NCBI GenBank assembly: GCA_021846845.1
Contig: JAJZWB010000007.1
Coordinates: 1 to 45,332 of the forward strand
DNA length: 45,332 nucleotides
Reading direction: 5' to 3'
DNA from: Actinomycetes bacterium
Lineage (GTDB): Bacteria > Actinomycetota > Thermoleophilia > Solirubrobacterales > Solirubrobacteraceae
Below are positions 4,058 through 45,332 of this stretch, in pieces. The notes under the pieces are model-generated. The model worked only from the letters and a program-made list of their open reading frames with translations. It did not search any database and was not told where the DNA came from. The translations under genes and the position numbers were made by a program. Numbering within the stretch: position 1 is the first letter of the stretch; each line of letters starts with the position of its first letter.

Positions 4058-4104
4058 CGGTCTCCCTGCGATTGGCGGGGTCGTCGTCGCGCCGGAGAAT
4101 CCAC

Positions 4105-4140
4105 CTAAGCCAGGTGCGGGCACATCGGGCAGCCGCCCAT
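4105..4140 (-). promoter_or_regulatory. Upstream element of the propeller/collagen gene (copy A)
   Basis: Read on the minus strand, GGGCGGCTGCCCGATGTGC (4138-4120) is followed after exactly 10 nt by CTTAG (4109-4105) and 47 nt later by the start codon. Upstream of the divergent gene the same element occurs with one mismatch and the same spacing. Within it, GGGC-N4-GCCC is a small palindrome. It may be a promoter, with CTGCCC as -35 and the CTTAG block as -10, or an activator site. Confidence 0.65.
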
Positions 4141-14265: not shown

Positions 14266-14358
14266 CCGGCTGCCCTTCGGTGGTTGCCTCTTGCGGCGCT
14301 CGGGTGAGGCGGCCCTGACCGCCGCGGTCACGGGCACACGACGCGCGTTGCGCTGGAA

Positions 14359-14458: not shown

Positions 14459-17400
14459 ATGCCGCCACTTCGACTCGGTGCCAGCATCGGCAGCGGAGCT
14501 GGCCGGCTTGAGCGCCTGGGAGCAGGTTTGCGCAGGGGTCTGACTCCCGCGTATGCCGGGACGGCTCCCGGACCGCTGGGCGCCGGCCTCGGACTCTCGG
14601 GCCTGGGCACGCGCCGGCAGCGCAGATTCATGGCGCTGCTTGCGCTGCTTGCGCTTGCGCTTCCGTATGCGGTCGGCTACGGCGGCCTGATGCGTCTGGA
14701 GCTCGGTGCGACCACCGCGCCGGCTCCGCTGCCCGTGTTCGATGTCCCCCTGGCGCAGTTCCCGGCGATGGGGATGCCACGCTTCCGGCCCGGATCCCCG
14801 GCTCGCAGCGCGCCCGCCGCCGTCTCTCGGCCGGCGATCGCCGGGCCTGCGGTGGCGTCGGTCCCGGTTGCCGCCAGGCGCGTGGTCCGGATCGTGCGAC
14901 GACGGGTCGTCCGCCGGATCGCGGCTATGGGCAACAGCTACTCGCTGGTTCCGGTACGGCGCAGGCCGAGTTCCGCGCCGGCGCCCGCATCCGCGGCCAG
15001 GGGCCTCGCGCGTGCTCTCTCGCAGGCTCCGGTGGTCGGCAACTCGACACCGGTCGCCCCGATGGCGTCGCCCTCGGCGGGTGGGTCCCCGGCGTCCTAC
15101 GCCGCCGCGCCGGTCGTGAGCTCGCAGGCGACCGCCGCGCCGGTCGTGAGCTCGCAGGCGACGAGCGCACAGCCGGTCACCGCGCCGGCAGCGCCGGTCG
15201 CCGCGTCCACGGCGAATGTCGTCGCCGCGGCTTCGAGCTCGCCGTCGTCGGCCGGCCCGTCATCGTCGACCGCATCGAGCGCGCCCGCCCCGGGCGCCTC
15301 GGCGTCGTCTCCCTCGCCCGGCCAGTCCGGCGCACCAGGTTCCGGCGCGCCTGGATCGCCGGCCTCCGGTGCCCCGGCCTCGGGCACCGTGGGCGCCCCG
15401 GGAGTGACGGGATCGTCGCCTGGCGCCGCGAGAGCGGCCTCACCGCCTGACCGCGCCACCTCTCCACGGGAGACGTCGGCGCCGACCCCGTCCTCGACCG
15501 GGTCGTCTTTGGGCACGAAGCCGACGTCCGGCGCCCAGCCGTCGGGCGCCACCGGGACTTCGTCCGGCGTCTCGTCGGGATCTGGCGGCACTTCGGCCGG
15601 TGCGTCCTCCAACGCGCCCTCCTCCGGTTCCTCGGTCTCGACGACCGCACCCTCATCGTCCGAGACGCCGCCGAGTGGCAGCGGCTCGGGCATCAGCACG
15701 GGCGGTGGTTCGGCCGCCGGTTCGGGCGGTGGTCCGGGCGGTGGTTCGGCCGCCGGTTCGGGCGGTGGATCGGCCGCCGGTTCGGGCGGTGGTTCGGCCG
15801 CCGGTTCGGGCGGTGGTTCGGCCGCCGGTTCGGGCGGTGGTTCGGCCGCCGGTTCGGGCGGTGGATCGGTCGTGGGCCAGCCCTCGACGCCCAGCGTCGC
15901 GGCGATGCCCGCGGCCATCAGCACCGTCTCGGTCGCGCCCGCCTCGCCGGCCGCGATCTCCTCCGGGCCGGTGGCGGTGACGACGACCCAGCCGGTGCCG
16001 GCAGCGGTGACCGTGCCTGCGGTCAACGTCCAGGCGGCGCCGGTCGCCACGACCCAGACGACGTTCCTCGTCGCCTCACCCGCGGCTGCGCCGGCAAGCG
16101 TCGGATCGACGTCGCTGAGCTCCTCAGGCGGAAGCGGCGTGCAGCTGCCGGTGGTCACCTCCTCGGCCGCGGCCGGCGGATCGACGTCGGCCGGGGCATC
16201 GTCGTCTCCATCGGCGGTAACGGGGCCGGCGGTGGCGCCGACCGCAGGGCCTTCGCAGAGCTCCTCGGGCGCGCCGGCGCCGGCGACGGCCGTGGCACCG
16301 CCCGCGGGCGCTGGGACGGTCTCGTCGCGCTACGCGGCGCCGGCGTCGGTTGCCGTCGCCCAGGCGGCCGCACGCGGCCCTCCGTCCATCACCTACGGCC
16401 CCGTGCTGATCGATGCCGCGACCGGAGGCTCGATCGACGCGGGCGCGGCCACGCTGTCCTTCGCGCCCGGTGCGCTGCCGGCCGACGCGTATGTGTCGGT
16501 GACCGTCGTGGCCGCGCCGAGCATCAACGGCCTGAGCGCCGCCTCGCAGGCATATGAGCTGAAGGCGATCGACGCCCAGACGGGCGCGCTCATCGAGCAC
16601 TTCGCCTCGCCGCCGCAGCTGATGGTCAACATCGGCGGTGGAGTCGCGCCGGACTCGCAGATCTACTACCTGCCGCCGAGCGGCTCGCCGGTGCCGATCG
16701 CCTCGATCGTCGACCCGTCGACGGGCACCGTGACGGCGGGACTGCCCCACTTCTCGACCTACGTGGTCGCCAGCGGGGTCTGGAACATCTCGGTGACGGG
16801 CACCGGCACGCAGACGCTGACGCTGCGGGTCGACAACAACCAGCTCGTCGCGCTTCAGAACGGGGCGATCACGCAGACGCCGCTGTCTGGCCTCACCGGC
16901 GTGAGCGTCTCGGGCGCGGCGGGCGTGGGCGTGAACCTGGTGCTCGACATCACCGGGGGCGCCATCACCGTCCCGGTCGCGTTCACGGGAGCCAGCGGCA
17001 CGACGAACTCCCTGTCGGTCCCCTACGCGAGCGGGCAGGCGAACTGGACCTGGGACGGGACCACGCTGCGTGGCACGAGCACCGTCGCGGACTTCGCGGG
17101 CGTCACCGCCGTCGGCGTCCAGGCGCTGAGCGTCGACCCGAGCTTCGTGCAGCAGCTCACAGGGCCCTCGAGCGCCTCGCAGACCTGGACGCTGGACGGG
17201 ACGCAGGCGGGCTTCATCGACGGGCTCTCGTTCAGCGGTGTGACCAGCATCGTCTCAGGCACCGGGACCGACGTGCTCCAGACGGCGCTCACCGGATTGG
17301 CGGCCTCGTCCAGCGGGACCGCGCTCGGCGTCTCCTACAGCGGAATGAGCTCGGTGAAGTCGGGCATCCAGGCCGCCTCGTTCGGCTACGTGGCCCCATC

Positions 17401-20400
17401 GGGCGACAACGCGATCACGCTGGGCGCCGGCCCGAGCTCCTCCCTGCTGACGGTCACCGACGTCAACACGACCCAGGATCCGACCACGGGCGCCAACCAG
17501 GTCACGACCACGACCACGACGTTCGCCGCGCCGAGCGCCCTGCTGTCGATCGTCGGCGACCCGAGCGCGACCACGTCGATCACCGTCGACCCCGGCCTCG
17601 GGCTCCTGGGACAGCTCTCGCTCCAGGCCGATGCGGCAACGGTGGTGCTCGGCGGCGGGACGGTGGGCGTGACGCTGGCAGAGCCGGCGTCGCTGCAGAA
17701 CATCAGCACCACCCACAACACGGTCGTCTCCGTCTCGGGCAGCGACCTCTCCATCGCCGAGAACTTCAGCAGCGTGCTGGTCCCGCTCACCGGGATCACG
17801 AGCCTGACGATCACGGGCGCCGGGCAGGGCAACGACAACGTCGCGCTCGATGTCGCCGGCGGCCCGATTCCGTTCCCGGTGTCGTTCACCGGCGGGGCCG
17901 GCCAGAACCTGCTCGCGCTTCAGGATCTGACCGGTGGGACGGCCTGGAGCTGGAACGGCACCAGCGGCAGCGTGACCTCGACCGCCGCCACGGCCGAGTT
18001 CGGGCCCGTCACGTTCGCCGGCCTCAGCTCGATCGAGATCCTGGCCGGAAGCGCCACGGCCACGAACACGCTCACCGATACGGCGGGCAACTCGACCTGG
18101 ACGCTCGATGGGACCGGCCAGGGCAACGTCAACGGGCTCGCGTTCAGCGGGTTCACCGCGATCGTGGGCGCGGGCACCGACACCCTGCTGGCGCCCGTCG
18201 CGCCCGTGGGCGGCCTGGTGCTGGGGCTGGCCTACTCGGGCATCAAGACGACCAAGATCGCGGCGGCGCAGACGTTCACCTTCGTCGCTCCCGCCGGCGG
18301 CAACACGATCACGGTCGCCGACGCCGGCAGCGGCATCGGCATCACCGACGTCAACGCGGTGTCGGGAACCACAACGCTCGACATCCCAACGCCGAGCTCG
18401 GGCCTCGTGATCGTCGCCTCCAGCGGCCAGAACTCGTTCAACGTCGGGCAGCTGGGCAACTTCTCCGGGCAGCTGACCTTCGTCGGAGCCGGCTCTGACA
18501 CGCTCAGCGGTCCACAGAACGCGATGTCGTGGACGATCACCCAGGCGGGCTCCGGCTCGGGAGCCCCGGCCTCCTCATCACCGCTGCAGTGGGCCACCAA
18601 CGGCCAGCAGCTGGCCTCGACGATCACCGCCCTGTCCTGCACGAGCGCCGGGATCTGCGTCGCGACCGACAACCAGGGCGGCGTCTACACGGCGAGCGAC
18701 CCGTCGAGCGCCTGGACCCGACAGCAGGGCGTGGACGGGAGCCGAGCGCTGACGGCGCTGTCATGCACATCCGCCGAGTGCGTCGCTGTCGACGGCGCCG
18801 GAAATGCGGTCGTGTCCTCGTCTCCCACGGTCGCGGGCAGCTGGTCGGTGGTAGCGATCGACGCCGGTCACTCCCTGACGGGCGTGTCGTGCGTCACATC
18901 GCCGGGCTCGGGCCAGAGCGGACCGCAGACCACGTGCGCGGCCACCGACAATGCCGGCAACGTCCTGACGGCGGTCGACCCGGGCGCGCAGACGGCCTGG
19001 ACGTCGGCCTCCGTGGACGGCACGACGGCCCTGACCGGCGTCTCGTGCGGCACGCCCACGCTGTGCGTGGCGGTGGACGCGAGCGGGAACGTGGTCGTCT
19101 CCAACCAGCCGGCGGGGGGCGCCTCAAGCTGGACCGCCACGCAGGTGGACCCCGGTACGAAGCTGGCGGCCGTGTCGTGCAACGACCAGTCCGTCTGCGT
19201 CGTGACCGACAGCGCCGGGCAGGCGTTCGTATCCCAGGATCCCGCCACCGGCGCGTGGACGCACACCTCCGTCGACGGCACATCCGCGGTGGGCAGCGTC
19301 TCCTGCGCGGATGGCCTGTGCGTCGCGGTGGACGCCTCGGGCACGCCCCTGATCTCCACCGATCCGGCGAGCGGCAGCTGGGGCTCCTATCTCGGGGCGG
19401 TGCCGCTCGGCGGCCAGCAGGGCTTCGTGTCGTGCGCCAGCGCGACCGCCTGCGTGGCATTGTCGGCCTCAGGACAGGTTTCGGTCGGCACGCCCGCCGA
19501 CCCCGCGGGCTTCAGCGGCACGATCTACTTCACCGGCATCGGAGTGCTGAACTCGCGCGGCGGGGCCGACTCGCTCGCGGGTCCGGTGGCCAACACCGCG
19601 ACGTGGACGATCACAGGGCAGACCGGCGCGGGGACGATCGCCGACACGAGCAGCGGCAGCCCCGTCCAGATGATCTCGTTCCAGGGGATCCAGACCCTGA
19701 TCGCGGGGAGCGGGATCCCGGGCAGCGACACGCTGGTCGGGCCGGGCAACGAGAAGTGGACGCTCACCGGCGCCGGCGCGGGAACGCTGGGGCTGAGCGG
19801 CGGTCCGACGCTTGCCTTCTACGGCTTCGATCAGCTCACCGGGACCGCGGGCGACCAGCTGACAGGCCCGAGCTCAGGGAAGACCGTCTACGCGCTTCAG
19901 CCCGGAGGCGGGTTCGCGGTCGACGGCGTGACCGTGACCGGGGTGTACGCCGTGACCGCCAGCGGGCTGACCGGGATCAACGGCGACACGGTCATGGGCG
20001 ACTCGACTCAGGCGACCTGGACGGTGAGTGGGGGCGCGTCGGTGTCGATCGCCGCCGGTGTCGGGCAGACCTACACGTTCGCCGGAGTGGCCAGCTTGGA
20101 GTCGGGCAGCGCGGGGGACACGCTTATCGGCCCGGCCGGCGGTTCCACGTGGTCCGTCGACGGAAACGGCTCCGGCCAGCTCGACCCGGCCGGCGCCACC
20201 GCCCCGCTGCAGTTCATCGCCTTCAAGTCGCTGGTCGGGAGTGGGTCCGACACCCTCAACGCGCCCGGGTACACATCCACGGGCCCGTCCTCGGGGACGG
20301 TCGCGGGAGCGAGCTTCAGCGGCATGCAGACGGTGAACAGCGTGACGGTGCCGGTGTTCACCTACTACGGAGCGGCCGCCGGGTCCGACACACCCGTGAT

Positions 20401-38400: not shown

Positions 38401-41400
38401 GTCCGCGTCCGCCGGAGGACGGCTCGCGATCGAGCAGTCGACCGGCGACCTCACGTTCGGACGCATCAGCGCCGGCCAGGACGCGACGATCGACGTGCCC
38501 GGTGGCAACCTGGTCTCGACCACGCCGCTCGCCGTCGCGATAAACGCCTCGTCCCTCTCGGTGCTCGTGAACAGCTCGTTCGGCAGCGCCACGGAGCCGA
38601 TCTACCTCGCGATCCCGGGCAGCGTGAGCGTGACCGCGCCGGCCGGCGTCTACATCGGCACGCTGGGCCCCAACAGTCCGCTCACGGTCGGGACGATCAG
38701 GGCGAGCGCAGGCGACGTGACCCTCCTGGTGCAGGGCGATGTGACGCTCGGAACGGTCACCTCATCAGGGACGGTCTCGATCTTTGCCGAAGGCTCGATC
38801 AGCGAGGTCGGCGACCCCGTGACTCCGCCGACAACCGACGCCGCCGCCAACCCCAACATCGTCGCTCGGTACGGGGTGCTGAAGTCCGGCGTCGGGATCG
38901 GCAGCTCGAACGCCCAGATCGAGACCAACTTCGGGACCCTCGCCGTGTCCTCGTTCGGGGCAATGTGGCTGATCAACTACGGCAACCTGGTCGTCGACCA
39001 GGTTCCCGGGGCGACGATCAAGGGTCTGACCACCGGCGGAACTCTGAACCTGACCCTGCACAGCGACCTCACGATCAACCAGCCCGTGAGCTCAGGCGGT
39101 GCGCCGATCACCGAGGTCGCGGACGGCAACATCACCGTCAATGCCGGAGTCAGCAGCGGTGGCGGCTCGATCTCGGTCTCCGCGGGCCAGGCCGTGACGC
39201 TGACGGCCGCGGGGTATCTCAGCGAGGGCTCCGCGGGCACCGCGCCGGTCCAGGTGGATTCGGGAACGATCGATCCCACGGCTGCGCTGACGATGAGCCC
39301 CGGCTCATACATCGCAGGCGCCGCGGGGCCCGTCGGCCTCACAGGCGGCGGCACGGTGACCCTGACCGACGTCTCGACCACCGGCTCCGCAACCGTCACG
39401 AGCACCCGCGGCTCGATCATCGATGGCAACACGGCGCCGGGCGCGGTCGACGTCACCGGCGGCCTGATCGCGCTCAGCGCGCTCACGGGCTCGATCGGGA
39501 CCTCCACAGCGCCGCTGCTCGTGGATCAGACGGGGACCGGCGACATCGGACCCCTGACCGCCGGCAGCGGCCTGTACGTCGATCTCACCGGTGGTCCGCT
39601 GCATATAGCGACGGCCACCACCAGCAGCGGCGACGTGGCGCTGACGGTGCTGCCGAGCGGCGCCTCCAGCCAGGACATCGTGCTCGACCAGCCCACGAGC
39701 GTGGTCTCGACCGGGAACGGCTCGGTCACCCTGACCACCCCCGGTTCGCTCTCCATCTCCCCCGGTGGCACGGTCAGTGCGACAAGCGGGCTGACCGCAA
39801 CGGCATCGGGCCCCGTGAGCCTCACGGGCGCATCCCTGGCGGCAGGAGGCGGAGAGCTCTCGCTGACGTCCACCGGCGGGGAGATCGCCTCGTCGGGCTC
39901 GGGTCTCAGCGGAGCCTCGGTGGTGCTGCAGGCGGCCGGCGCGATCCTGCTCACGTCCGGAACGACACTGAGCGCGGCGGCGGGCGACGCCACGATCACC
40001 GGTGATCCAGTGACGATCGACTCCGCGAGCGTGAACGCGGGGGCCGGCGCGATCGGCATCACCGCGCTGGGCGGGCAGCTGTCGGTTCAGCATGGGTCGG
40101 TCGTCAGCGCGAGCGCGGGGTCGGTCACGCTCGATGCCCAGTCAGGGGCGCTGTCGGTCGACGGCTCCTCCGTGACGGCCGGCACGCAGCTGACTGGGAC
40201 CGCAGCCACGATCGTCGCGTTGACGACCGCTTCGATCCACGTCGCTGGTGCCGTGTCGATCCAGGGGCAGTCACTCAGCGTTGATACGAGCGGGATCACC
40301 GCGGCAGGTGCCGTGCAGCTGACGAGCACGCTCGGTGCCGTCACCGTCGATGGATCGTCCGCGATCTTCGGCGCGGGCGGTGTGACCGTGAAGTCCGCCC
40401 AGGCCCTCGTCGTAACCGACAGCTCGCTGACAGCTGGCGCCGGCGACGTGACCCTCAGCTCGGCCGGGCCGATGACGCTCACCGGCTCTCCCGTTGCCGC
40501 GACGGCGGGCACCGTCAGCTTCGCAACCAGCGGTTCCGCGCTGCAGATCATCCAGGACCAGGGCGCCCAGGGCGCGGTCAGCGCCGCGACGGACATCATC
40601 GCTTCCAACGCCGGCTCGCTGGCGATCACCGGGCTGAAGCTGGCCGCCGGCCGCGACGTCACGCTCGGGGCGACCGGTCCTGCCACCCTCGGTGCGGCCA
40701 CGATTCAGGCTGGTGGGGGCCCTGGCGGCGGCAATGTCGCAATCACCTCGCAGCAGGGGCTGCAGGTGCAGGGCGCCACGGCGATCTCGGCGGCCTCCGG
40801 CGCGGTGTCGCTCATGGCACAGGACGTGTCGGTGACGGCCGGTTCGTCTGTGTCGGCGACCGGCGGGACCGTGGCAGTGACGGCATCCGCCGGAGACCTG
40901 TCCGTCACGGCCGGATCGTCTGTGTCGGCGATCGGGGGCACCGTGCAGCTCGGCTCGTACACCGGGGCGGTGTCGATCACCACGGGAGCATCGGTCGCCG
41001 GGCAGAACGGGACGACCTTGACGGCGACGGCGGGTGGGGTTTCGGTGGTGGATAGCTCGGTTTCGTCGTCGGGTGGGGATGTTGGGTTGTCGGCGGGTCT
41101 GGGGGTCTCGGTCACGGGTTCGCCGGTGACGGCGTCTGTCGGGAGTGTTTCGTTCACGGCGCGGGGTGGTGATGTGGCGCTCGTGCAGGATGGTGGTGGG
41201 CGGGGTCTTGTTCAGGCTGGGCTTGATGTGAGTGGCACGGCGTCGGGTGCGGTGACGGTTTCGTCGGTGCCGTTGACGGCTGGGCGGAACATCGCGTTGA
41301 GCGCGGGCGGGGCCGTGTCGTTGACGTCGGTTGTCGCGGGGGCGGGGACGGATGTGACGGTGACGGCGGGTGCGGCGTTGACGTTGTCGGGCTCGTCGGT

Positions 41401-44400
41401 GACGGCGAAGGCTGGGACGGCTGCGCTGACGTCGTCGGGTGGGGACGTGGCGGTCCAGTCCGGAGCCTCCGTGACGGCTGGCGCCGACACGACGCTGAGC
41501 GCCAGTGGCAACGTCCTTGTCGATGCAACGAGCTCGGTCGTCTCGGGGGCGACGCTGACCGTCAGCGGCGGGCTGGACAACACCGCGCACACCGTGCTGC
41601 TGGAGGGTACGTTCGCCGCGCCGCTGATAGAGGTGAATGTCGGCAACGGCGGGGATGCGATCACCTACGAGCCCGTGTCCGTGGCCGGCTACACGCAGAT
41701 CACGGGTGGAGCCGGCAACGACACGATCACGCTCCTGCTGCCGTCGATCGACGTCGCGGACATGCTTGCCCAGGGGCAGAGCGGACCCGACGCTCTGGTG
41801 AACGGGACCCCGGCGCAGGGCCGTCCGCGTACGGTCCAGGGGGTCAACCTTCCGCTTCGCAACATGGTCGACGTCAACGGTGGCGCGGGCAGCGACACCT
41901 ACAACATCCACCTCTCGGGGATCACGGCCGCCGCGCCGACCGGCACGAGCTACATCGTCAACGTGCACGACTCCGGTCCGCCGACGGATGTCAACGTGCT
42001 CAACGTCTACCTGCCGGCGTCGCAGCCCAACGACCTGCTGGTGCGGGCGAACTTCCTCGCGCTCGTGCATCCGGCGGCGAACGCGGCTCCGACCGGGCCC
42101 TTCACCGCCAACTACGAGCGGGTCAACTACGACTCGACCGCGTCGCTGAACATCTTCGGCGGGGGAAGCGGCGACCACTACTACCTCGTCGACACCGGGA
42201 CCGCGACGACGGTCAACGCCGGCAACGGGAACAACAGCTTCCAGATCGGCGGCCTGTTCGGCGAGCCGCAGGTCGCCCCGTCCGCCGTTGCCAACGGCGA
42301 CCAGATCTCGACAGTCCAGACGACGGAGGGCTATCTGAGCCGCGGGGTCAGCAACGCCACGGTGATCAACGGCGGATCCGGCGACAACACGTGGGTTGTG
42401 TACGCCTACCACGCGCCGCTGAAGCTGAACGCCCAGGGTGGGGACAACACCTTCCAGGTCAACGCGTTCCTGCAGATCGGGACCGGTGGCGCTCTGAGCT
42501 ACGTGCCCGAGTCCGCCCTGACGATCGACGGCGGCACCGGTCACAGCAGCCTTCTGGTGGTCGGCACTCCCTCTGCGGACCGCTTCGCCGTGACCTCCGC
42601 GCAGGTTCTGGGTGCCGGGTTGAACGTGTCCTATCGCAATCTCGTCGCGCTCCAGGTCAACGGCAACGGCGGCTCGGATACGTACAACGTCCTGTCGACC
42701 GCCGCCGGCGCCGTCACCGTGCTCGACGGTGGCTCCTCGGGCAGCGTGACGTTTGATGTCGGCGGCGATGTGGTCGGCCAGGTCGTCGCCTTCAACGCGG
42801 ACGGCTCTCCTGCGCTGACCAATCCCTACGCGGGTCCGCACCTCACCAGTCTGCTCGCCGGTCCGCTGCTGATCAACGGCGCGCCGGTCCCGGCTCCCGC
42901 CCTGGTGCCGGCGCCTCAGCTGCCGACCGAAGCGGACGCCCCGCTCCCGGTCGTGGCACCTGCGCAGGCGGACCCCAACCGGGTTGCCACGCTCAACGTG
43001 TTCGACGACCTGGCGCAGAGCGGGCAGATCGGGACGCTCGGGCAGGTGTCCGCGGGCCAGTATGCGGCGCTCGGCGCGCTGTATGCGGGCTCGGACGCGG
43101 CGTCGCTCGCACAGAGCGCCTTCGGGGTGATCGGCGGTCTGGGGGCCAGCGCGGCGCAGTCGATCTCGTTCGGGACCCTGATCAAGCCATCGACGCTGAG
43201 CTTCGATGGCGGGATCGTCTACGGATCCGTGGATGTGGTGAACGTGATGCTCGGCTCAGGCGCGTCGAGCGTCGCGACCGAGGGCGTGTTCACGGTCAGC
43301 GCGACGGTGCAGAACACGATCACCGTCGTGCAGGGCGGGGGCGGCTACAAGAAGCTGGTGGCGACGGGCGGTGGCGGCTACGACGCGCCGCTGATCCTGC
43401 TGGGGAACACCACCCAGGACGGAAGCTTCTACAACTCCACCCCGAGCGCGCTGACCGGCGGCGCGATGGTGTACTCGAACCCCGGTCAGAGCGTCATCGA
43501 CGCGTCGCTTGATCCCAACAGCGTGATCATCTACGGCGGGGTCGGCAACTCAGTGATCTACGGCGGCGGCGGCGGGGATCAGATCTTCGGCGGGTCCGGC
43601 AGCGATTCGATCTTCGCCGGTTCCGGGAACGATCTGATCCATGCCAACGATGGGATCAATCTGGATCTGTCGCACACGCTGGCCCAGGTGCTGGCCGGTG
43701 ACCTGCAGGCGATGATCGTGGTGAATCAGCCGGTCGGGCCCGCCGTGTCGCCCACGGCGGATCCGCTGAATGCGACGTCTGATCAGATCTACGCGGGTAT
43801 GGGCCACGACGTGATCTTCATGGATCACGGTGTGGTTGATCAGCTGAACAATCCGATCACCGGCACGGGCGGCGTGATCGATGCATACACCGTCGATCCG
43901 GTCACGTTCGGGCTGAGCTCGGTGTTCGGCGCGTATGGCGGGAGCGTGGTGGTCTTCGCCGGCTCGGGGCAGCAGACGATCGATCTGGCCAAGACCAGTC
44001 AGCCGAATGTGGTGCTGAAGAACGGCTATGTGGATTTCGCCGGGCCCGACAGCTGGATCCAGCGGCTGTCGAAGGTCGGGAGCACCGATCCCGGTGCCGG
44101 CGGCAATGACACGATCACGCTCTCGAACGGGAATGACATCGTGATCGCGGGGCCCGGCTCGGACCGGATAACCGGCGGAGGGGGCAACAAGATCGTGCTC
44201 GGCGACGATGGCGCGATCACGTGGCTCGCCGGTCAGCTGAGTCAGATCGTGAGTCTGGACCCGGGGGTGTCGCTGCACAGCCTGCGGGCGAACACGATCA
44301 CGCTGGGCAATGGCAACGACATCGTGTTCGGGGGCTCCGGCGCGAACACGATCACCCTGGGCACGGGGCACGATGTGGTCGTCGGGGCGCTTGGCGAGCT

Positions 44401-45031
44401 GACGTTCGACAAGGGCGTGCCGGTCACGCTGCAGAGCATCTATCCGACGTATGGCGGCCCCGACACGATCACGGTCGGCGGTGTCGGCGGGGTTGTGATC
44501 GGCGGTCCCGGTGGGTCGACCATCTCGGTCGCGCCCGGGGCGGTCGGTTCATCCGATGCGGTTGTGTCAGGGTCGGGCGTGGCGGGCTATGACGCGGCGA
44601 CCGGCACGTGGGTGGTCGTCTCGCCTGCGCCCACTGCGCCGCCTGGGGGCACCTCTCAGGGAGGGGCGACCGCGCCCGTGGCGGGTCCGGCGCCGACGCC
44701 TGTGTCGCCGGTGGCGGTCCAGCCGGCCGCGCCCATCTCCTCCCAGGGCAATGCGGGCAACCCTGAGAGCGGGAAGGGCACGGCAGGCAAGCCCAAGGGC
44801 GGGAAGCCCAAGCGCGGGAAGGGCAGGCGCGGCAAGCCCAAGCGCGGGAAGGGCAGGCGCGGGAAGGGCAGGCGCGGCAAGCCCAAGCGCGGGAAGGGCA
44901 GGCGCGGCAAGCCCAAGCGCGGGAAGGGCAGGCGCGGCAAGCCCAAGCGCGGGAAGGGCAAGCGCGGGAAGGGCAAGGCCAGGAGGGGCAAGCGGGGCTC
45001 AGGGGCCGGCGGCGGGCGGCGTAGGCGGTAA
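14459..45031 (+). CDS. Giant multidomain surface adhesin, about 10,190 residues
   Basis: One uninterrupted frame of 30.6 kb, about 1 MDa. A signal anchor (14630-14695) follows the basic RRQRRF. Then come an Arg-rich patch (14870-14930), a low-complexity Ala/Ser/Pro/Gly linker (to about 16380), a ZU5-like domain (about 16390-16790) and beta modules of type WT(L/I)DG...GADTLxGP, with a seven-bladed propeller inserted (18619-19510). A beta-solenoid with two TGDPVVY...YYVI modules (22410-23000) leads to alternating 62-residue repeats (24650-32000) and Cys/Trp-rich segments (34200-36480). The end is FHA-like solenoid (to 41600), RTX-like repeats (GGSGSDSIF, AGSGNDLIH; 41630-44560) and a Lys/Arg/Gly tail. 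The likely role is adhesion or matrix formation. The start is uncertain: TTG 14291, ATG 14378, 14459 and 14630 are all in frame. Bases 14378-14458 use rare codons (TTA, AGA, AGT), so 14459 or 14630 is preferred. No toxin or sortase motif at the C-terminus. Confidence 0.93.
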   Translation: MPPLRLGASIGSGAGRLERLGAGLRRGLTPAYAGTAPGPLGAGLGLSGLGTRRQRRFMALLALLALALPYAVGYGGLMRLELGATTAPAPLPVFDVPLAQFPAMGMPRFRPGSPARSAPAAVSRPAIAGPAVASVPVAARRVVRIVRRRVVRRIAAMGNSYSLVPVRRRPSSAPAPASAARGLARALSQAPVVGNSTPVAPMASPSAGGSPASYAAAPVVSSQATAAPVVSSQATSAQPVTAPAAPVAASTANVVAAASSSPSSAGPSSSTASSAPAPGASASSPSPGQSGAPGSGAPGSPASGAPASGTVGAPGVTGSSPGAARAASPPDRATSPRETSAPTPSSTGSSLGTKPTSGAQPSGATGTSSGVSSGSGGTSAGASSNAPSSGSSVSTTAPSSSETPPSGSGSGISTGGGSAAGSGGGPGGGSAAGSGGGSAAGSGGGSAAGSGGGSAAGSGGGSAAGSGGGSVVGQPSTPSVAAMPAAISTVSVAPASPAAISSGPVAVTTTQPVPAAVTVPAVNVQAAPVATTQTTFLVASPAAAPASVGSTSLSSSGGSGVQLPVVTSSAAAGGSTSAGASSSPSAVTGPAVAPTAGPSQSSSGAPAPATAVAPPAGAGTVSSRYAAPASVAVAQAAARGPPSITYGPVLIDAATGGSIDAGAATLSFAPGALPADAYVSVTVVAAPSINGLSAASQAYELKAIDAQTGALIEHFASPPQLMVNIGGGVAPDSQIYYLPPSGSPVPIASIVDPSTGTVTAGLPHFSTYVVASGVWNISVTGTGTQTLTLRVDNNQLVALQNGAITQTPLSGLTGVSVSGAAGVGVNLVLDITGGAITVPVAFTGASGTTNSLSVPYASGQANWTWDGTTLRGTSTVADFAGVTAVGVQALSVDPSFVQQLTGPSSASQTWTLDGTQAGFIDGLSFSGVTSIVSGTGTDVLQTALTGLAASSSGTALGVSYSGMSSVKSGIQAASFGYVAPSGDNAITLGAGPSSSLLTVTDVNTTQDPTTGANQVTTTTTTFAAPSALLSIVGDPSATTSITVDPGLGLLGQLSLQADAATVVLGGGTVGVTLAEPASLQNISTTHNTVVSVSGSDLSIAENFSSVLVPLTGITSLTITGAGQGNDNVALDVAGGPIPFPVSFTGGAGQNLLALQDLTGGTAWSWNGTSGSVTSTAATAEFGPVTFAGLSSIEILAGSATATNTLTDTAGNSTWTLDGTGQGNVNGLAFSGFTAIVGAGTDTLLAPVAPVGGLVLGLAYSGIKTTKIAAAQTFTFVAPAGGNTITVADAGSGIGITDVNAVSGTTTLDIPTPSSGLVIVASSGQNSFNVGQLGNFSGQLTFVGAGSDTLSGPQNAMSWTITQAGSGSGAPASSSPLQWATNGQQLASTITALSCTSAGICVATDNQGGVYTASDPSSAWTRQQGVDGSRALTALSCTSAECVAVDGAGNAVVSSSPTVAGSWSVVAIDAGHSLTGVSCVTSPGSGQSGPQTTCAATDNAGNVLTAVDPGAQTAWTSASVDGTTALTGVSCGTPTLCVAVDASGNVVVSNQPAGGASSWTATQVDPGTKLAAVSCNDQSVCVVTDSAGQAFVSQDPATGAWTHTSVDGTSAVGSVSCADGLCVAVDASGTPLISTDPASGSWGSYLGAVPLGGQQGFVSCASATACVALSASGQVSVGTPADPAGFSGTIYFTGIGVLNSRGGADSLAGPVANTATWTITGQTGAGTIADTSSGSPVQMISFQGIQTLIAGSGIPGSDTLVGPGNEKWTLTGAGAGTLGLSGGPTLAFYGFDQLTGTAGDQLTGPSSGKTVYALQPGGGFAVDGVTVTGVYAVTASGLTGINGDTVMGDSTQATWTVSGGASVSIAAGVGQTYTFAGVASLESGSAGDTLIGPAGGSTWSVDGNGSGQLDPAGATAPLQFIAFKSLVGSGSDTLNAPGYTSTGPSSGTVAGASFSGMQTVNSVTVPVFTYYGAAAGSDTPVIEAYTGPSGIQMEITGGSFGTVLFADPTTQLVIDMAGNSNTVTLASLDPNVGGLQINGGGGTGNELVAQGASFTTDGAGSGTVTPPGAAAGSYTGFQVLAGGTSLTGPSTGGPTDWTLTGQRQGTLGTVSFSGIATLIGTSGADSLTGPSGATVWSVTGNNSGSVDGTGFQGFYDLNGGGGGTQTLDGPAGGGGSFVITGLTDVSVAGMTFTGFGNVVGQGTGNVINSPCAGSAPSDQCGGIAYSGMQSVTVGPPTTYTYDPSTSADTITVSADPGHPGYITIADNSGATAIADPSGALVILAKGSGDTVVLSSLDASFNASLEIYGVRAIPLGPRTTTAVQTGSQSSLATNALIAATESVSVAGHLSLGAGDLFVVADRFTVAAGAGVTTSGAIDVLAQATTNLGNAIAGGTSLSDAITIGDNATLTGGSISLIAMATDTAGFGDQLASGSGGLGSALDIAGTVLKTLGPILLGTLPLSVIVKSASSSITIGSGDQLQATSGSLQVLAYSTLTSQGKTKSELFSIGYAQAVTSATISVAAGAALDATGAVSVLADASSIATLTAQTPQYLGVNPPYPGRVALSLAVTYADVTATATLAAGATVTAGQTANFNALGTLTSEPSAGTSQNNNGQVGMAISIGLSNSDVAATVDGSITADMAAGSVTTLLFDPTVTNPTSVGYVDTTANTIFVGPNVLQTGDPVVYQDSGGDPVGGPLLGLVPGSTYYVIKLAGDPNRIQLADTLQGALTGQVQKFDNLGGTATTIVKTFDASAILPATNQIVISLDRAGGNQFNLFGTPLITGEPVIYRQGGANPAIPGLVDGQVYYVIVPQSQYDATGSTPGFAFTNHETIQLAASLTAAEAGQALSLGCPATPTAGGACDGSGYTLVAPHQLVSAQTAGVGVTAAFTAADQAQATAVIADPTQKILGSRKLANLSSFIQLGTQGLSNYVINMLAWKLAGEAGSQLDQSKIPAKPKVAVGGAVSFIYADHAVSATIGAGATIVSGGDLNVLATASDSAQAYATSAITGQTNDPKAKLVGDSQYQTAVSLALGIVDVSNSATTAVGSGAALNSPAAMWIGSGVTYPWLTSLSNLPGNIAQLVGSLSSGGAVTVITDLLGELQNSLPGLFANGFAQAGAQAAKTSIGGQIVFLWFDGSAVTSIGDGASINQNVAHPAADQTVVVSAENINQLILGAGLTLISNNNGLALGLTNGSSGAAVAPTSEGNGSSGVGGAIVGLVLTDTTTAYVGTGVKITTGAQGVLAVTATEYDAEFALSQAGAAADTTAVSGSVTFYVQNSDTTAQIDTGAQITGGPVIVAATSLETAINSAGDIVSGHGTGIGISIALAIVNRTTQAIIGSSNLSAPGSGGTKISISGPLSVSAVNGGSLWGFAIAGSVVTPQPLTADSTDPLDGVSLPALFGEQPSATDHPGVKTGVAIAGAATVNEVTDTTIAAVNDLGTISTGTAAVAVSATQNTDVATGTGAIAANNGAGSQRNVALAGAFSLNQVTDLTEALLAGTQIPVAGSLTVSATRGGRIDTGTVGAAGAKPSGSSDGLAGSVSWDQVNATTEAVLAGVVATVSGDASVSALDSAQQISIGGGIGVGGQVGVGASLALNQVTQTTEALLVPLTVGTGTSAVTTDPSLTIGGGYSQSATDASQIIAVGLSAGIGQSAVAATMAINLGTTSAQATTTDASITTNGGDISITSTDNSAIDSGVGSLALGAIQPSKDPENASNSSVRLAIGISIAVNSIDQSAPVTLTGTTLRSSGRIVLAGDATGSIYSVAVAGGGSFLGSGNQSGFQFAGAGVVVINEITGTLGVTVSGGSLTSGPGSAITLSASDSSQINADAGAGALLVSLSPGQLNVAAGAAAAVNSIARTIEATTNGTVLTAGTAQAPGAISVTAGSSSGIDTFSLGIAGAITSGSGGGASFAGAGSGAGSTVANSLLATIDGGSVLAPAGLTVKATDSSRIDTTAGAVSITVARGPPVGLAVGISVAANDIGNTIAAHVNGATSVSADGIAVEAQSSATIDVVTFAGSGAANVPTGSGATFTFAGAGAGSGNYIHDTITAALAGDAQITSTAPAATQANPNPVSGAITVSATDQATIDAKAGAGALGLSISTNQSGATVTIGAAAAVNTVTDTVTATLAGPGLTPGSLTQLTSSGPVSVTASSTATISVLTVGIAGALQAGPSAAFSGAFAGAGSGSGNQLGVTVSATVGAVDMSLLTGALTVSATDASAITADAGGAALAIAAGQSAVALAVGISVAQNSIADAVTARLTGATVGSYGSPAGPVDVSASSQASIQSLTVAGAASVAVANGGPVGGAFGGAGSATVNSVADVTTASVDGSSVIDASSLTVSATDAVRVKADAGSGALAIGAGTDAGASGAAAAAVSVNSVTDSVSAQLAGSSSVLLGSGALAITATDSANVSSLAIGIGGSGGGGTEVGVALSGAGSESHNNVAETVAAQIASSTVQQAGVVQVQAIESATIDSAAGSGAISASGSDVGAGSIAIGASVAGNVIAPTVSATLDAASVQSSRSVLVAATSGDQISAKAIGGGLAVAGSGQLAAGIAFSGAFATNRITPQIAAQITGSTAGTPLNAYSTLTTGCGGVPVSGQVVLCATDAGASISAQAVGVSLDASFGGEVGGSLSIGASVAANTIGGSVQAYIEGSTVSTSSGITAYAISSASIQALAVAASLAAGVGGSVGVGLSGAGAQATNVILTAVGAYASNSSVTSAQLTLTATDSSQISALIVAASASVGLGSNGFGASIGVSLAQNYIGYDPAASAAPAGSVSSDSTLTSGLAAGTDVVIASGVGKGDVYEYIGPTITAQQNPSINLQYEDYADTSRWLQINLTPSAQQIRAYTQSSTITTGQLALDATSSEQISATVAAVSVAVAGGSNGLGLSGAGASDVNTIDTQVLAFISGGPISASGVTLSAADSSSITAGTGAGSLAAAGGSMGGSLSIGVAVADNQITADTEAYIAGAPQLSVGSGGVSLTATHSATISATTSAASIAASFGGNLAASLTGAGAAATNTITPTTLTHIDNSTVDSGGGVSLSSHDSSTITATVVASSAALAIGGSAGVGLSIGASVVNNTIGTAQNRGQVTATIDGSHVVSGGTVSQVATDTATISAVVAAGSAAISGGSDIGVGLAGAGAGATNSIALDVLATIDSNATVDAVAVSVGVSDSSQVSATAAGVALGAAFGTVGVGVAVGAGVATNRIDNNVNATIAQGTVSTAPVFASPTGQSVQVEPGDTVVAPSTAPQYYTGQSGTQISGSNGAVAVTTVNVSPGTIVGVSPGYLSPSYTTASGTQKVYTDTTVQVAPGYAAGGVAGQVYAYVGPNAVSLDLGTQNYAGSDWVAIGGTAGASYAYVGPAAALDLNAQNYADSSLWRPVAGSAGAVYAYQGGPATLNLLAQDYSAAPWTPVAPAGVTLSSSESATINATAAGASLAASLSPAAAVSFAGAGAEAQNVILGQSNAFIDGGSVTSAGALSLTAHDTSSITAHVISVAASLGGGVDFGGAAAIGSSTAQNLIGWSDTSTRSPNQVEAYISGAAFTVGGALSATATSSAAISALVDSIAVALGVGAVGGAVSGAGVAVVNMVSSDVVASLTGTGATQDNTVGGALTLTAADTSRISATGLAASVTASAGLVSGSISIGVALGSNTVANTVQAFISGVDRVSAPSIGLQATEAAAVTTSSQAVSVATSFSLGASAAGGGANDSATVQNTVGAYISGSTVDSAGTLSLSAADNSTANAQVAAVAVSAAVEAFAGAGSTVATNVSPKVSAELDSSNVTAGGQISLAASADGAAAATAAGAAYSTGASVAASTSSATMAPSVSSYIASGTVTSTGGGISLTSLYNANPDGTEAAPGPGGLGASATTQASTGGLVSGSGASAAATDSGNVQADITGGTLVAAGAIAVNAASWALPRAKTEGYDAGIAGVGSSTATATSNGTTQAYVTGNIAGGGSLSVTSYSTEAPTAAAQAFSGGIIAGDGASAQASSTPDTGGDPAATAYLGAGRIAVTGAADVAATYTPDASSSVTGGSFGGVTVGVSLAGAVSNADVTATVAPGADLATGSLSLIATRAVPSSGYSAQAGADGSSGSVLIGVAATTASADSAGHVTASIGSNVTLPAGDVSIVASDVSGQNADASARAYSALAAGGSTATAGSDVITAATLGANPQTSRGRSGGLTVQAHGTDSNSSSSYAGSGGLISGNAAVSSTSDISSTTAAIDAPAIIYAGAVKVDASHTSGYFAHADSTEASVVGGSGASATASAQTPVNTIVGDASGNSVAIYGSSISITAENQYVSDGAGQNSVSAGAGGGITVNAALSTTTLGASGDTNVNVGNGVTLSATEPNPLSGSGVLIEATSKVGAYDSVSLDTGGLITGAGSSSSMTANLYPTVTIGSGGTIFSTSGVAIGTTTGQSTASTSSYVSTGGLAAVGSTDASTTVNAGQQVTIGSGETVTALGNVTLSAGGDPTGSAPTVLTAYADAEGYVRGFVAIPTASSHVTIVSNSALSIGSGDSLAAGEDVLLQSTRGTLSPNSTGAAHGYELGFIPVTSHDSHPSTSGAGLLSMSQTATATAGAFSHLSITIPNCANDGPFCSSPPAPGAGGMPFTASYFSNVPILNYASQLFGASEPKDIPANVSSTPVGLMVLGSLFASGGDVTVSADQIAGGGTVVANGGASVSVVNNSPDYLQIGDVTIPDIPGGNVVFLGNASSGLNVVQNGQNAPGAILIDNAYSCAQGATNCVGNSPEGPAMFVTGSIVDLGGPLTLESPSGSYFQSGGTQAGSVTENFPNGAAAISPSGGSGAPWLGGNPYSEWQGFMIWPGGNPATNQSGAAGFNGNVAVAYAATALFPGYGNTQALSDALIGYAGSYTAGIMVPGDTSFAGGQYSDPGTYGTLFNGGYFGSIVFYGSCMAYADLQNLQADCPQTIANGLSPAGGSVLLSGSGGAAYFPAVPLEPLGTSAAGYCPPGVAYGSASCYANLGPSLSSSAVYGRDVSISGATVDINTQITAGQPTSWTVVLPSIYKAIFAGLAATGQTMTFPVARIGQRVIYGTYDGLAGTLTLSNISASSGDTTVTIDGGIMNTDPIGQISVNGGLGTINITNQTGATLVLGNLYAGSLAASGASQSSIDINDTSKGLQTLYVHSGGAVTEYTGALNAPQSQLTQVSSTADVNGANTVTYLPQGGQRWQWIEQALLQRQVLADPANYWPTYALGNWQYVMPNGSPNDPWQYCTDSSCSGLTNTPTGWLVTGSNDTTAFDQSISTNATQDWINGAGTDSFHYHGCGNNIGSGCNFGFLKTSNVSDNGGQNNGYANWQYWDPTQMSLAMTMSVNASEPISLSFAGETTGTITVLSDGSVVLAGQVTNPNGSTSITVAPDANGPGGSITWARNGQGQPQITSQNLTLIASGGIGQIGSPMPITITGGTLTAEAGPAGVFLNLNSGATLGTVSSQGAGGYGDVVITAQGTLAQASASTQVTGADISITTGVGSIASTASPLLLSANAGTNPDGTAAQGVVNASAPGDIGLRQVGGDMLVGAISSSGGNVVLQAPGGSILDASGQTAGSVLTQAQVNTILAHLNLEDQGAAVTAFQNTVNSEYALYWRLRTNGTIGQGGAYQLSANSVAAFTPQTAVALALANPTAAEVQSYAAWLYGQTVAFFDNQAYVSYSGPNGVTLPAPGAPLPGGPQPLLGDCPNGSSPGCWQTQDPAFASFNQAFAYTVAPGSAQALAIAGDFVWTTNELLYSINRTSLESSSGTPVGVGIPNVSGHDVTLTAGVGIGQLAAPAQITLAEMRAGNVSNAQAGALALANAPGDVVLAGVDSGSGIGAVTFVLSSQFGATALTGTDAAGNAITITVTGTDQSGNLVGVDSGGNQVTISTIDITQSAPFFIAALGSLTATSANGPSYLQSTTPDINVQQISATGDVSVTAPESILAASGAASPAIVSGGNMRLLAGSGDIAGSVSGTSIAPLVIQVGGTLSSASAGGRLAIEQSTGDLTFGRISAGQDATIDVPGGNLVSTTPLAVAINASSLSVLVNSSFGSATEPIYLAIPGSVSVTAPAGVYIGTLGPNSPLTVGTIRASAGDVTLLVQGDVTLGTVTSSGTVSIFAEGSISEVGDPVTPPTTDAAANPNIVARYGVLKSGVGIGSSNAQIETNFGTLAVSSFGAMWLINYGNLVVDQVPGATIKGLTTGGTLNLTLHSDLTINQPVSSGGAPITEVADGNITVNAGVSSGGGSISVSAGQAVTLTAAGYLSEGSAGTAPVQVDSGTIDPTAALTMSPGSYIAGAAGPVGLTGGGTVTLTDVSTTGSATVTSTRGSIIDGNTAPGAVDVTGGLIALSALTGSIGTSTAPLLVDQTGTGDIGPLTAGSGLYVDLTGGPLHIATATTSSGDVALTVLPSGASSQDIVLDQPTSVVSTGNGSVTLTTPGSLSISPGGTVSATSGLTATASGPVSLTGASLAAGGGELSLTSTGGEIASSGSGLSGASVVLQAAGAILLTSGTTLSAAAGDATITGDPVTIDSASVNAGAGAIGITALGGQLSVQHGSVVSASAGSVTLDAQSGALSVDGSSVTAGTQLTGTAATIVALTTASIHVAGAVSIQGQSLSVDTSGITAAGAVQLTSTLGAVTVDGSSAIFGAGGVTVKSAQALVVTDSSLTAGAGDVTLSSAGPMTLTGSPVAATAGTVSFATSGSALQIIQDQGAQGAVSAATDIIASNAGSLAITGLKLAAGRDVTLGATGPATLGAATIQAGGGPGGGNVAITSQQGLQVQGATAISAASGAVSLMAQDVSVTAGSSVSATGGTVAVTASAGDLSVTAGSSVSAIGGTVQLGSYTGAVSITTGASVAGQNGTTLTATAGGVSVVDSSVSSSGGDVGLSAGLGVSVTGSPVTASVGSVSFTARGGDVALVQDGGGRGLVQAGLDVSGTASGAVTVSSVPLTAGRNIALSAGGAVSLTSVVAGAGTDVTVTAGAALTLSGSSVTAKAGTAALTSSGGDVAVQSGASVTAGADTTLSASGNVLVDATSSVVSGATLTVSGGLDNTAHTVLLEGTFAAPLIEVNVGNGGDAITYEPVSVAGYTQITGGAGNDTITLLLPSIDVADMLAQGQSGPDALVNGTPAQGRPRTVQGVNLPLRNMVDVNGGAGSDTYNIHLSGITAAAPTGTSYIVNVHDSGPPTDVNVLNVYLPASQPNDLLVRANFLALVHPAANAAPTGPFTANYERVNYDSTASLNIFGGGSGDHYYLVDTGTATTVNAGNGNNSFQIGGLFGEPQVAPSAVANGDQISTVQTTEGYLSRGVSNATVINGGSGDNTWVVYAYHAPLKLNAQGGDNTFQVNAFLQIGTGGALSYVPESALTIDGGTGHSSLLVVGTPSADRFAVTSAQVLGAGLNVSYRNLVALQVNGNGGSDTYNVLSTAAGAVTVLDGGSSGSVTFDVGGDVVGQVVAFNADGSPALTNPYAGPHLTSLLAGPLLINGAPVPAPALVPAPQLPTEADAPLPVVAPAQADPNRVATLNVFDDLAQSGQIGTLGQVSAGQYAALGALYAGSDAASLAQSAFGVIGGLGASAAQSISFGTLIKPSTLSFDGGIVYGSVDVVNVMLGSGASSVATEGVFTVSATVQNTITVVQGGGGYKKLVATGGGGYDAPLILLGNTTQDGSFYNSTPSALTGGAMVYSNPGQSVIDASLDPNSVIIYGGVGNSVIYGGGGGDQIFGGSGSDSIFAGSGNDLIHANDGINLDLSHTLAQVLAGDLQAMIVVNQPVGPAVSPTADPLNATSDQIYAGMGHDVIFMDHGVVDQLNNPITGTGGVIDAYTVDPVTFGLSSVFGAYGGSVVVFAGSGQQTIDLAKTSQPNVVLKNGYVDFAGPDSWIQRLSKVGSTDPGAGGNDTITLSNGNDIVIAGPGSDRITGGGGNKIVLGDDGAITWLAGQLSQIVSLDPGVSLHSLRANTITLGNGNDIVFGGSGANTITLGTGHDVVVGALGELTFDKGVPVTLQSIYPTYGGPDTITVGGVGGVVIGGPGGSTISVAPGAVGSSDAVVSGSGVAGYDAATGTWVVVSPAPTAPPGGTSQGGATAPVAGPAPTPVSPVAVQPAAPISSQGNAGNPESGKGTAGKPKGGKPKRGKGRRGKPKRGKGRRGKGRRGKPKRGKGRRGKPKRGKGRRGKPKRGKGKRGKGKARRGKRGSGAGGGRRRR
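15701..15868 (+). repeat. GGGSAAGS coding repeats in the giant gene linker
   Basis: Six copies of a 24-bp unit encoding GGGSAAGS, the first followed by one degenerate GGGP, and ending in GGGSVVGQ. The near-identical DNA, differing mainly as GGTTCG versus GGATCG, indicates recent slippage. The product is a flexible linker between the membrane-proximal part and the first folded domain. Confidence 0.9.
18619..19510 (+). other. Seven-bladed Cys-paired propeller domain inside the giant protein
   Basis: Seven repeats of about 40-50 residues follow the pattern (A/V)SC-x4-14-C(V/A)A(V/T)D..G...S.DP....W....VD. Each blade has two cysteines, 14 in all. Seven blades is a standard closed propeller. Flanking beta-module sequence is split by it: SWTITQAGSGS lies before and GTIYFTGIGVL...GADSLAGP after. 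Confidence 0.85.
24650..32000 (+). repeat. About 36 alternating 62-residue solenoid repeats in the giant protein
   Basis: Repeats recur about every 180-190 bp. Each has a strand like (S/T)ATDSSxIxAxAG, a Gly/Ala run, an Asn-centred turn and a strand like VxAxIxGSxV. From about 25600 to 31800 the Asn turn alternates between type A (IGxSVAxNxI) and type B (GAGAxxxNxI). Confidence 0.85.
40380..41450 (+). repeat. Diverged internal duplication in the giant gene
   Basis: Two protein segments of about 145 residues align end to end: 40380-40810 (DSSLTAGAGDVTLSS..., LTGSPVAATAGTVSF..., LAAGRDVTL...) and 41020-41450 (DSSVSSSGGDVGLSA..., VTGSPVTASVGSVSF..., LTAGRNIAL...), about 640 bp apart. The second copy has markedly different codon use. 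A shorter pair (VTAGSSVSATGG / VTAGSSVSAIGG) lies between them near 40830-40950. Confidence 0.75.
41630..44560 (+). other. RTX-like calcium-binding repeat region of the giant protein
   Basis: Scattered nonapeptide-like motifs include GGAGNDTIT, GGAGSDTYN, GGSGSDSIF, AGSGNDLIH, AGMGHDVIF, AGPGSDRIT, LGNGNDIVF and LGTGHDVVV. They are densest at 43555-43650 and 44090-44390. Such motifs bind Ca2+ in hemolysin-type proteins and drive folding after export. A Pro/Ala linker near 42890-42965 separates two clusters. Confidence 0.75.
44786..45028 (+). repeat. Polycationic tail encoded by 30-bp tandem repeats
   Basis: The last 81 residues contain 45 Lys/Arg and no acidic residue. Five copies of a 30-bp unit encode GKPKRGKGRR (the last copy GKPKRGKGKR), with a partial GKGRR copy after the second, and the end is GGGRRRR. 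Near-identity at DNA level points to recent expansion by slippage. Confidence 0.93.
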
Positions 45032-45225: not shown

Positions 45226-45332
45226 ATGAGTCTCAAGCGGGTTTGGCGTGTTGGGGCGGTTGGGGCCGTGTGTGCGACGGCGGGCGCGCTGGTCGGCCTG
45301 CCGTGGGCTGACGCGAGCTCTTCGTCGGTGGC
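45226..45332 (+). CDS. Secreted protein of unknown function, 5' end only
   Basis: ATG at 45226 follows GGAGG by four bases. The 35 visible residues begin MSLKRVWRVG and continue as a hydrophobic Ala/Gly/Val core ending near PWADASSSS, a classical Sec signal peptide. The mature part is cut by the window end, so function cannot be named. It lies 194 bp after the giant gene on the same strand, and codons ending in G or T (GTT, TGT, CGT, GGG) are more common than in most of the window. It could be a partner of the giant protein or another surface protein. Confidence 0.75.
   Translation, partial: MSLKRVWRVGAVGAVCATAGALVGLPWADASSSSV

Follow-up and report, generated by a model that had tools for sequence, protein, structure and literature searches.

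Giant exoproteins with RTX or LktA-type repeats are usually associated with the exporters of an outer membrane. Surface proteins are named among the main bacterial groups in a survey of huge proteins (PMC11573180), and giants are also described from bacteria that lack an outer membrane. The Giant1-5 proteins of Apilactobacillus kunkeei are extracellular, have 3,000-8,000 amino acids and are made by such a host; they are described as having a beta-solenoid and a positive C-terminal end thought to fix them to the cell wall, and in the published description its authors found no transport genes (PMC12863079). Our literature search, which had partial coverage, found no paper on the family of giants that we describe here.

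The window, that is, the whole stretch of DNA analysed (45,332 nucleotides), is contig C29 of a 3.68-Mb assembly (219 contigs, 95.3% complete) from a bacterium of the class Thermoleophilia. The giant gene at 14459-45031 (+) has 10,190 codons and a predicted product of 971.7 kDa. A first-pass annotation made from the sequence had claimed a single intact gene of 30.6 kb encoding a protein of roughly 1 MDa, and both points hold: the frame has one terminal stop, the window is free of any N, and GC3 ranges from 0.81 to 0.97 among 1.5-kb blocks and in every block exceeds the GC of the other two codon positions, while the other two forward frames contain 312 and 34 stops. The exact start is not fixed, because the same frame continues open upstream as far as a TTG at 14291. 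The contig ends 301 bp downstream of the gene, where a further ORF with a signal-peptide-like start (45226-45332) is cut by the window end, and the upstream side measures 14.4 kb. On that side, divergent genes at 2282-4123 (-) and 4595-6388 (+) encode secreted-looking products that combine collagen-type repeats with a Hydin-like Ig domain; LDL-receptor class B/Vgb repeats are added in one and an ALK/LTK-type Gly-rich domain in the other. The region 6626-11358 holds a metallophosphatase and an AAA_27/SMC-type protein, a pair resembling SbcD/SbcC.

The N-terminal part of the product is made up of several distinct pieces, all encoded on the forward strand. After the basic stretch GTRRQRR comes a hydrophobic segment (aa 57-75; 14627-14683), predicted to be a signal anchor or a signal peptide, with a moderate hydropathy peak of 1.88, and then a Pro-rich motif (aa 88-102, PAPLPVFDVPLAQFP; 14720-14764), whose loose pattern is present in 10 of 11 N-termini of giants. 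A Pro/Ala/Ser/Gly-rich linker of about 530 residues (about aa 110-640; 14786-16378) gave no Pfam match. The following domain (aa 641-790; 16379-16828) had been labelled ZU5-like in the first-pass annotation. It does recur in four other giant frames, with identities of 67% (C120), 48% (G032), 40% (G354) and 37% (G299), but the label itself drew no backing from Pfam, as neither PF00791 (ZU5) nor any other family matched at E 1. Similarly, the proposed propeller corresponds to a Cys-paired repeat domain (aa 1380-1700; 18596-19558) with seven Cys pairs, which is propeller-like by repeat count only; no Pfam family was above cut-off (best DUF6242, 17.4 bits against 29). Stretches similar to it lie on 8 other contigs of the same genome at 32-47% identity. 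Modules of the TGDPVVY...YYVI type (aa 2640-2900; 22376-23158) are similar to parts of the C120 and G290 frames.

The largest part of the body (aa 2957-6157; 23327-32929, +) consists of about 42 repeats of about 60 amino acids of the LktA_tand_53 type. The NCBIfam profile NF012206 (LktA_tand_53) matched aa 3141-5640 with E 6e-128 and 417 bits, a summed score, against a cut-off of 50 bits; in the genome search no single repeat exceeds 49.4 bits, and none of the 14 control genomes matched. A stretch of 269 amino acids was modelled as an all-beta, beta-solenoid-like fold (pLDDT 83, pTM 0.81; the five models ranged from 83 to 41), so that the alternating solenoid of the first-pass annotation is recovered in profile and model alike. 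Foldseek found no solved structure for this model at E 0.001 (best FapC, E 0.0048, TM 0.08), and VIA-align gave Z values of 5.1 for SufD (the best), 4.7 for CsgA and 3.4 for the HxuA secretion domain; we do not take these scores for kinship with SufD, CsgA, HxuA or FapC, as they are no more than a common arrangement yields. The FHA-like solenoid that had been proposed in addition gained no profile support, since neither Pfam nor NCBIfam scans of the window protein gave such a match. The stretch aa 5880-8160 (32096-38938, +) is collinear with a Chloroflexi homologue (L026) in three aligned parts of 845 columns (34% identity), 718 columns (31%) and 841 columns (34%), and aa 5880-9500 except about aa 8160-9040 align in order to that frame at 31-39%.

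Toward the C-terminus, a domain that we call R1 (aa 9040-9470; 41576-42868, +) is the hallmark common to the giants: all 13 other giant frames that were blasted and hold the region matched it, at 29.6-35.9% identity. Its structural model (pLDDT 60) was not used for fold claims; the best Foldseek match was an RTX domain at E 0.013, with none at E 0.001. RTX-type repeats follow (about aa 9690-10020; 43526-44518, +), and PF00353 nonapeptide repeats scored 46.6 bits in the window protein against a cut-off of 23, in agreement with the first-pass annotation. The basic tail was also correctly recognized there: the last 100 residues (44729-45028, +) contain 46 K+R and 1 D+E. The body is acidic, with a pI of 4.05 for aa 641-10080 and 59 Lys up to residue 10,080, and the whole protein has 530 D+E and 214 K+R. 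A PHROGs search with two stretches of the protein found nothing.

The distribution of cysteine is peculiar. All 34 Cys of the window protein fall into 17 pairs with a spacing of 5-15 residues, while 2,000 random placements gave a mean of 1.55 pairs and a maximum of 7 of 17. As a control, 70 ORFs from this genome with 295 Cys had 100 of them in pairs, where 78 were expected. Relatives rich in Cys follow this tendency less strictly, with 30/37 paired in C120, 26/30 in a G066 frame, 82/104 and 30/38 in G290, 38/47 in G299:C89 and 32/42 in G354, in counts whose frames take in some sequence upstream of the likely starts. This pattern fits local disulfides formed outside the cytoplasm, though it is not proof of them.

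The window giant is a member of a family and not a one-off. Its own genome carries a paralogue on contig C120, a frame of 7,715 residues with the same order of parts, truncated where the contig stops, and the C-terminal part of another copy on contig C2 (L018), with one in-frame stop and its own basic tail. The C2 copy is 66% identical over A1, the R1/RTX alignment, and 89.4% identical to the end of C120 across 2,353 bp. Downstream of this piece on C2 lie a Cys-repeat protein and a gene of the partner X described below. The first-pass annotation had proposed a search for homologues and their neighbourhoods in the class. Such a search found giants in 13 of 399 class genomes, matching an R1/RTX profile at E < 1e-49, with the next best genome at E 1.8e-9; the profile was built including the window itself, and two of the 13 (G000 and G066) are in it. 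Of the 217 class genomes that matched A1, about 204 did so by short matches only, which among the matches listed fell nearly always on the RTX repeats; these were not counted as giants. Open frames of class relatives reach about 12,200 residues. One giant lies in a genome of only 4 contigs (G039), and G290 (G290:C77, L073-L076) has two giants head to tail with near-identical N-termini. None of 27 congeners has a giant. A scan of named genomes with the same profile, strict enough to miss the class relatives, gave 67 pattern-matching stretches and three true relatives, one assembly each of Verrucomicrobia, Chloroflexi and Betaproteobacteria, in every case within a frame longer than 4,200 residues; LktA_tand_53 matches the Chloroflexi relative as well. 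Viral contigs gave 27 pattern matches and no relative of the giant. By eye, metzincin-type HExxHxxGxxH motifs occur in the giants of L027 (Betaproteobacteria) and G066, close to the C-terminal end of one and to the N-terminal end of the other. A basic tail is present in 6 of 13 readable C-termini (the window, C2 and four from one genus), so it is no general anchor.

A small secreted-looking protein, X, usually accompanies the giant family. It has about 450 residues and a signal-peptide-like start, its gene stands beside several giants, and it shares 41-74% identity among loci. A profile of six X proteins, with E 1e-20 as the limit, detected it in 18 of 399 class genomes, comprising 12 of the 13 giant-bearing genomes (the exception is G032) and 6 of the 386 others (Fisher p 8e-18, a statistic that ignores kinship). 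In one of the six X-only genomes (G323), a giant N-terminus adjoins X on a short contig, and its giant was missed by the profile for this reason; the X contigs of the remaining five are 4-10 kb long. X is near the giant in 12 of the 17 loci read (C120, C2, G066, G299:C89, G354, G323, G355, G039, G334, G271, G398, and 5.8 kb off in G235), and in G039, G334, G271 and G398 it starts at the giant's stop or at most about 20 bp away. The five loci where none was seen are the window, G290:C77, G394:C291, G299:C118 and G032; at the window's locus, the 14.4 kb upstream contain no X and the downstream side offers only the 301 bp to the contig end.

Other secreted-looking proteins recur in these neighbourhoods. 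They stand beside X in G334, G039, G271, G398 and G355, one of them with a weak DUF5122 propeller match, and in C2 and C187 the neighbour of X is a Cys-repeat protein like aa 1380-1700 of the window protein. X itself belongs to no evident family: one of the two scanned against Pfam had no match and the other a weak one to DUF3108_like (E 0.0029, 17.9 bits, cut-off 27), NCBIfam matched none of six, and the best PDB match was at E 0.48. Four further neighbours had no family or none above cut-off. A putative lipoprotein of about 270 amino acids lies near three giants (L082, L020-L021 and L090, in G032, G066 and G334), with a weaker relative in G299; two scanned gave no Pfam match.

With regard to the envelope, RpoB of the host genome scored highest against PDB chains, which we take to be those of Streptomyces and Mycobacterium, and this points to kinship of the host with Actinobacteria. 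WhiB was of no help as an actinobacterial marker (0 of 8 genomes, the sole control match being Corynebacterium). The Omp85 profile matched none of 8 relatives and none of the 13 giant-bearing class genomes (20 in all, as G000 is in both sets) against 7 of 14 controls, and the OEP (TolC-type) profile matched none of 8 class genomes including the window's own, again against 7 of 14 controls. Pfam detected no TPS/haemagglutination domain, either at E 1 in aa 1-640 or at E 0.01 in aa 641-10190. Export of the two-partner or TolC type is therefore improbable. No outer membrane is detectable, in agreement with the first-pass annotation, which expected neither two-partner nor type I secretion if the host is a monoderm, as it took the neighbouring genes to suggest. 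Nor did the flanks read show any exporter gene, let alone one always linked to the giants; the exporter profiles applied were those of Omp85 and OEP. On the other hand, the export of the chain, which the same annotation regarded as an open question, is less puzzling than it stated: 11 giant N-termini align in a basic stretch, a hydrophobic segment and the Pro-rich motif, and because they share the basic-plus-hydrophobic segment, export by Sec is expected. Signal peptides were judged by eye and hydropathy; in this way G039, G398, G032 and G066 show signal-peptidase-like ends, and no clear cleavage motif was seen in the window, C120, G354 and G299. An LPXTG sortase signal is absent by eye from the last 170 residues, and there is no hydrophobic window above 1.9 beyond aa 5558.

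From these sequence features, we consider it probable that the giant is a surface fibre that is exported by Sec, tethered by its N-terminus and served by a dedicated partner, in a host without outer membrane. The chain would enter the Sec channel via its N-terminal segment. In the window's lineage this segment is probably retained in the membrane as a signal anchor; in lineages with a signal-peptidase-like end, the N-terminus may be cut. The Pro/Ser/Gly linker would cross the wall, and the beta-solenoid body would fold outside while emerging, with the aid of local disulfides and, for the RTX part, of calcium. Where a basic tail is present, it could make a second, electrostatic contact with the wall, with extracellular DNA or with the acidic body of another chain. 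X, as a secreted and co-occurring neighbour, would help to tether, fold or assemble the fibre. The task of the fibre is probably adhesion or the building of a cell-surface matrix.

The giant could also be an exoprotein that is released or only loosely bound to the wall after cleavage of a signal peptide, held, if at all, by the basic tail or by calcium or sugar contacts, and serving as a matrix protein. The four signal-peptidase-like ends and the six basic tails would suit such a protein, and the Apilactobacillus giants are described as occurring in both cells and supernatant (PMC12863079). However, no clear cleavage motif is visible by eye in the window protein and the C120, G354 and G299 giants, and we regard release as rather unlikely. 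It is far harder to see the giant as a polymorphic toxin, or as a contact-inhibition protein that delivers an effector through its tip: the body is long and filamentous and the C-terminus changes among relatives, which would suit it, but no toxin domain exceeded the cut-off in Pfam or NCBIfam scans of the window protein, whose C-terminus is RTX repeats and a basic tail, and such a role seems highly improbable.

An error of assembly or binning, by which repeats were joined or a foreign contig was included, is nearly as improbable as an effector role, though slightly less so. The first-pass annotation had named misassembled repeats as grounds for withdrawing its claim; the giant gene contains zero exact repeats of at least 75 nt, so that collapse of repeats is unlikely, and collinear homologues exist, one in the 4-contig genome. 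Some features of the locus do look foreign, since the giant is missing in the 27 congeners, the SbcC-like neighbour, with its own copy and one weak match only among 28 genomes, is otherwise missing from them too, and the oxidoreductase neighbour is nearer to other families of the order (65-66%) than to congeners (58-60%). Yet one congener matches the MFS neighbour at 72%, GC and tetranucleotides of the window fall inside the range of the bin's sampled contigs, and the contig bearing rpoB of the same genome also has an X gene. Least probable of all, in our judgement, is a diderm adhesin that was acquired by the host and leaves the cell through a two-partner or type I system. It is from diderm exoproteins of this kind that RTX and LktA_tand_53 repeats are best known, and relatives do occur in Verrucomicrobia and Betaproteobacteria, whose records contain Omp85, but the missing TPS match, Omp85 and OEP in the class and the lack of an exporter in the flanks read speak against it.

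Returning to the tethered, Sec-exported fibre, the co-occurrence and adjacency of the giant family with the secreted-looking X is new here. If X proves needed, it would be a handle on the export, folding and holding of a chain of 10,000 residues without an outer membrane. At about 30 kb per gene and up to two giants in tandem (G290), the family should be costly and under selection. Moreover, the same body can be traced across two kinds of envelope, because collinear relatives exist in hosts without Omp85 (Actinobacteria, as judged by RpoB, and Chloroflexi, in whose record it was not found) and with it (Verrucomicrobia and Betaproteobacteria). As a tentative extension, the membrane-anchored protein of about 1 MDa and its dedicated secreted X for assembly or anchoring, often with a secreted propeller-like protein, may form a fibre system of the class's own, in which, in the lineages with basic tails, binding of tails to acidic bodies would knit a mesh around the cells.

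Compared with described systems, the giant shares its about 42 repeats (summed E 6e-128) with the filamentous LktA_tand_53 proteins (NF012206). The protein that gave the profile its name is presumably a Fusobacterium exoprotein of a two-partner system, whereas the giant has no TPS-domain match and the 20 genomes of its class that were scanned have no detectable Omp85. RTX adhesins such as SiiE have in common with it calcium-type repeats or sites and giant size, but are described as needing a type I system (PMC6272769), while OEP was found in none of 8 class genomes and the giant has an N-terminal signal segment. Among surface proteins of related or monoderm hosts, the 7,651-residue adhesin of Mobiluncus mulieris is also an actinobacterial giant, described with 51 cross-linked Ig-like domains in place of beta-solenoid repeats and RTX (PMC10619420), and the Embp/Ebh-type staphylococcal proteins likewise reach 1 MDa in a monoderm but, as described, consist of fibronectin-binding alpha-helical bundles with neither solenoid nor RTX (PMC7587433). 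The Apilactobacillus giants, which we could compare by description only, have a body of mostly alpha-helical repeats and a solenoid like that of serine-rich repeat proteins, and RTX, LktA-type repeats or an X partner are not mentioned in the published parts considered here (PMC12863079); even so, they appear the nearest to the window giant in way of life. Judged by its sequence, the window giant is a new variation on giant extracellular proteins, with no match to a TPS domain, no outer-membrane exit detected and, by eye, no sortase motif, but with the LktA_tand_53 and RTX repeats together in one chain.
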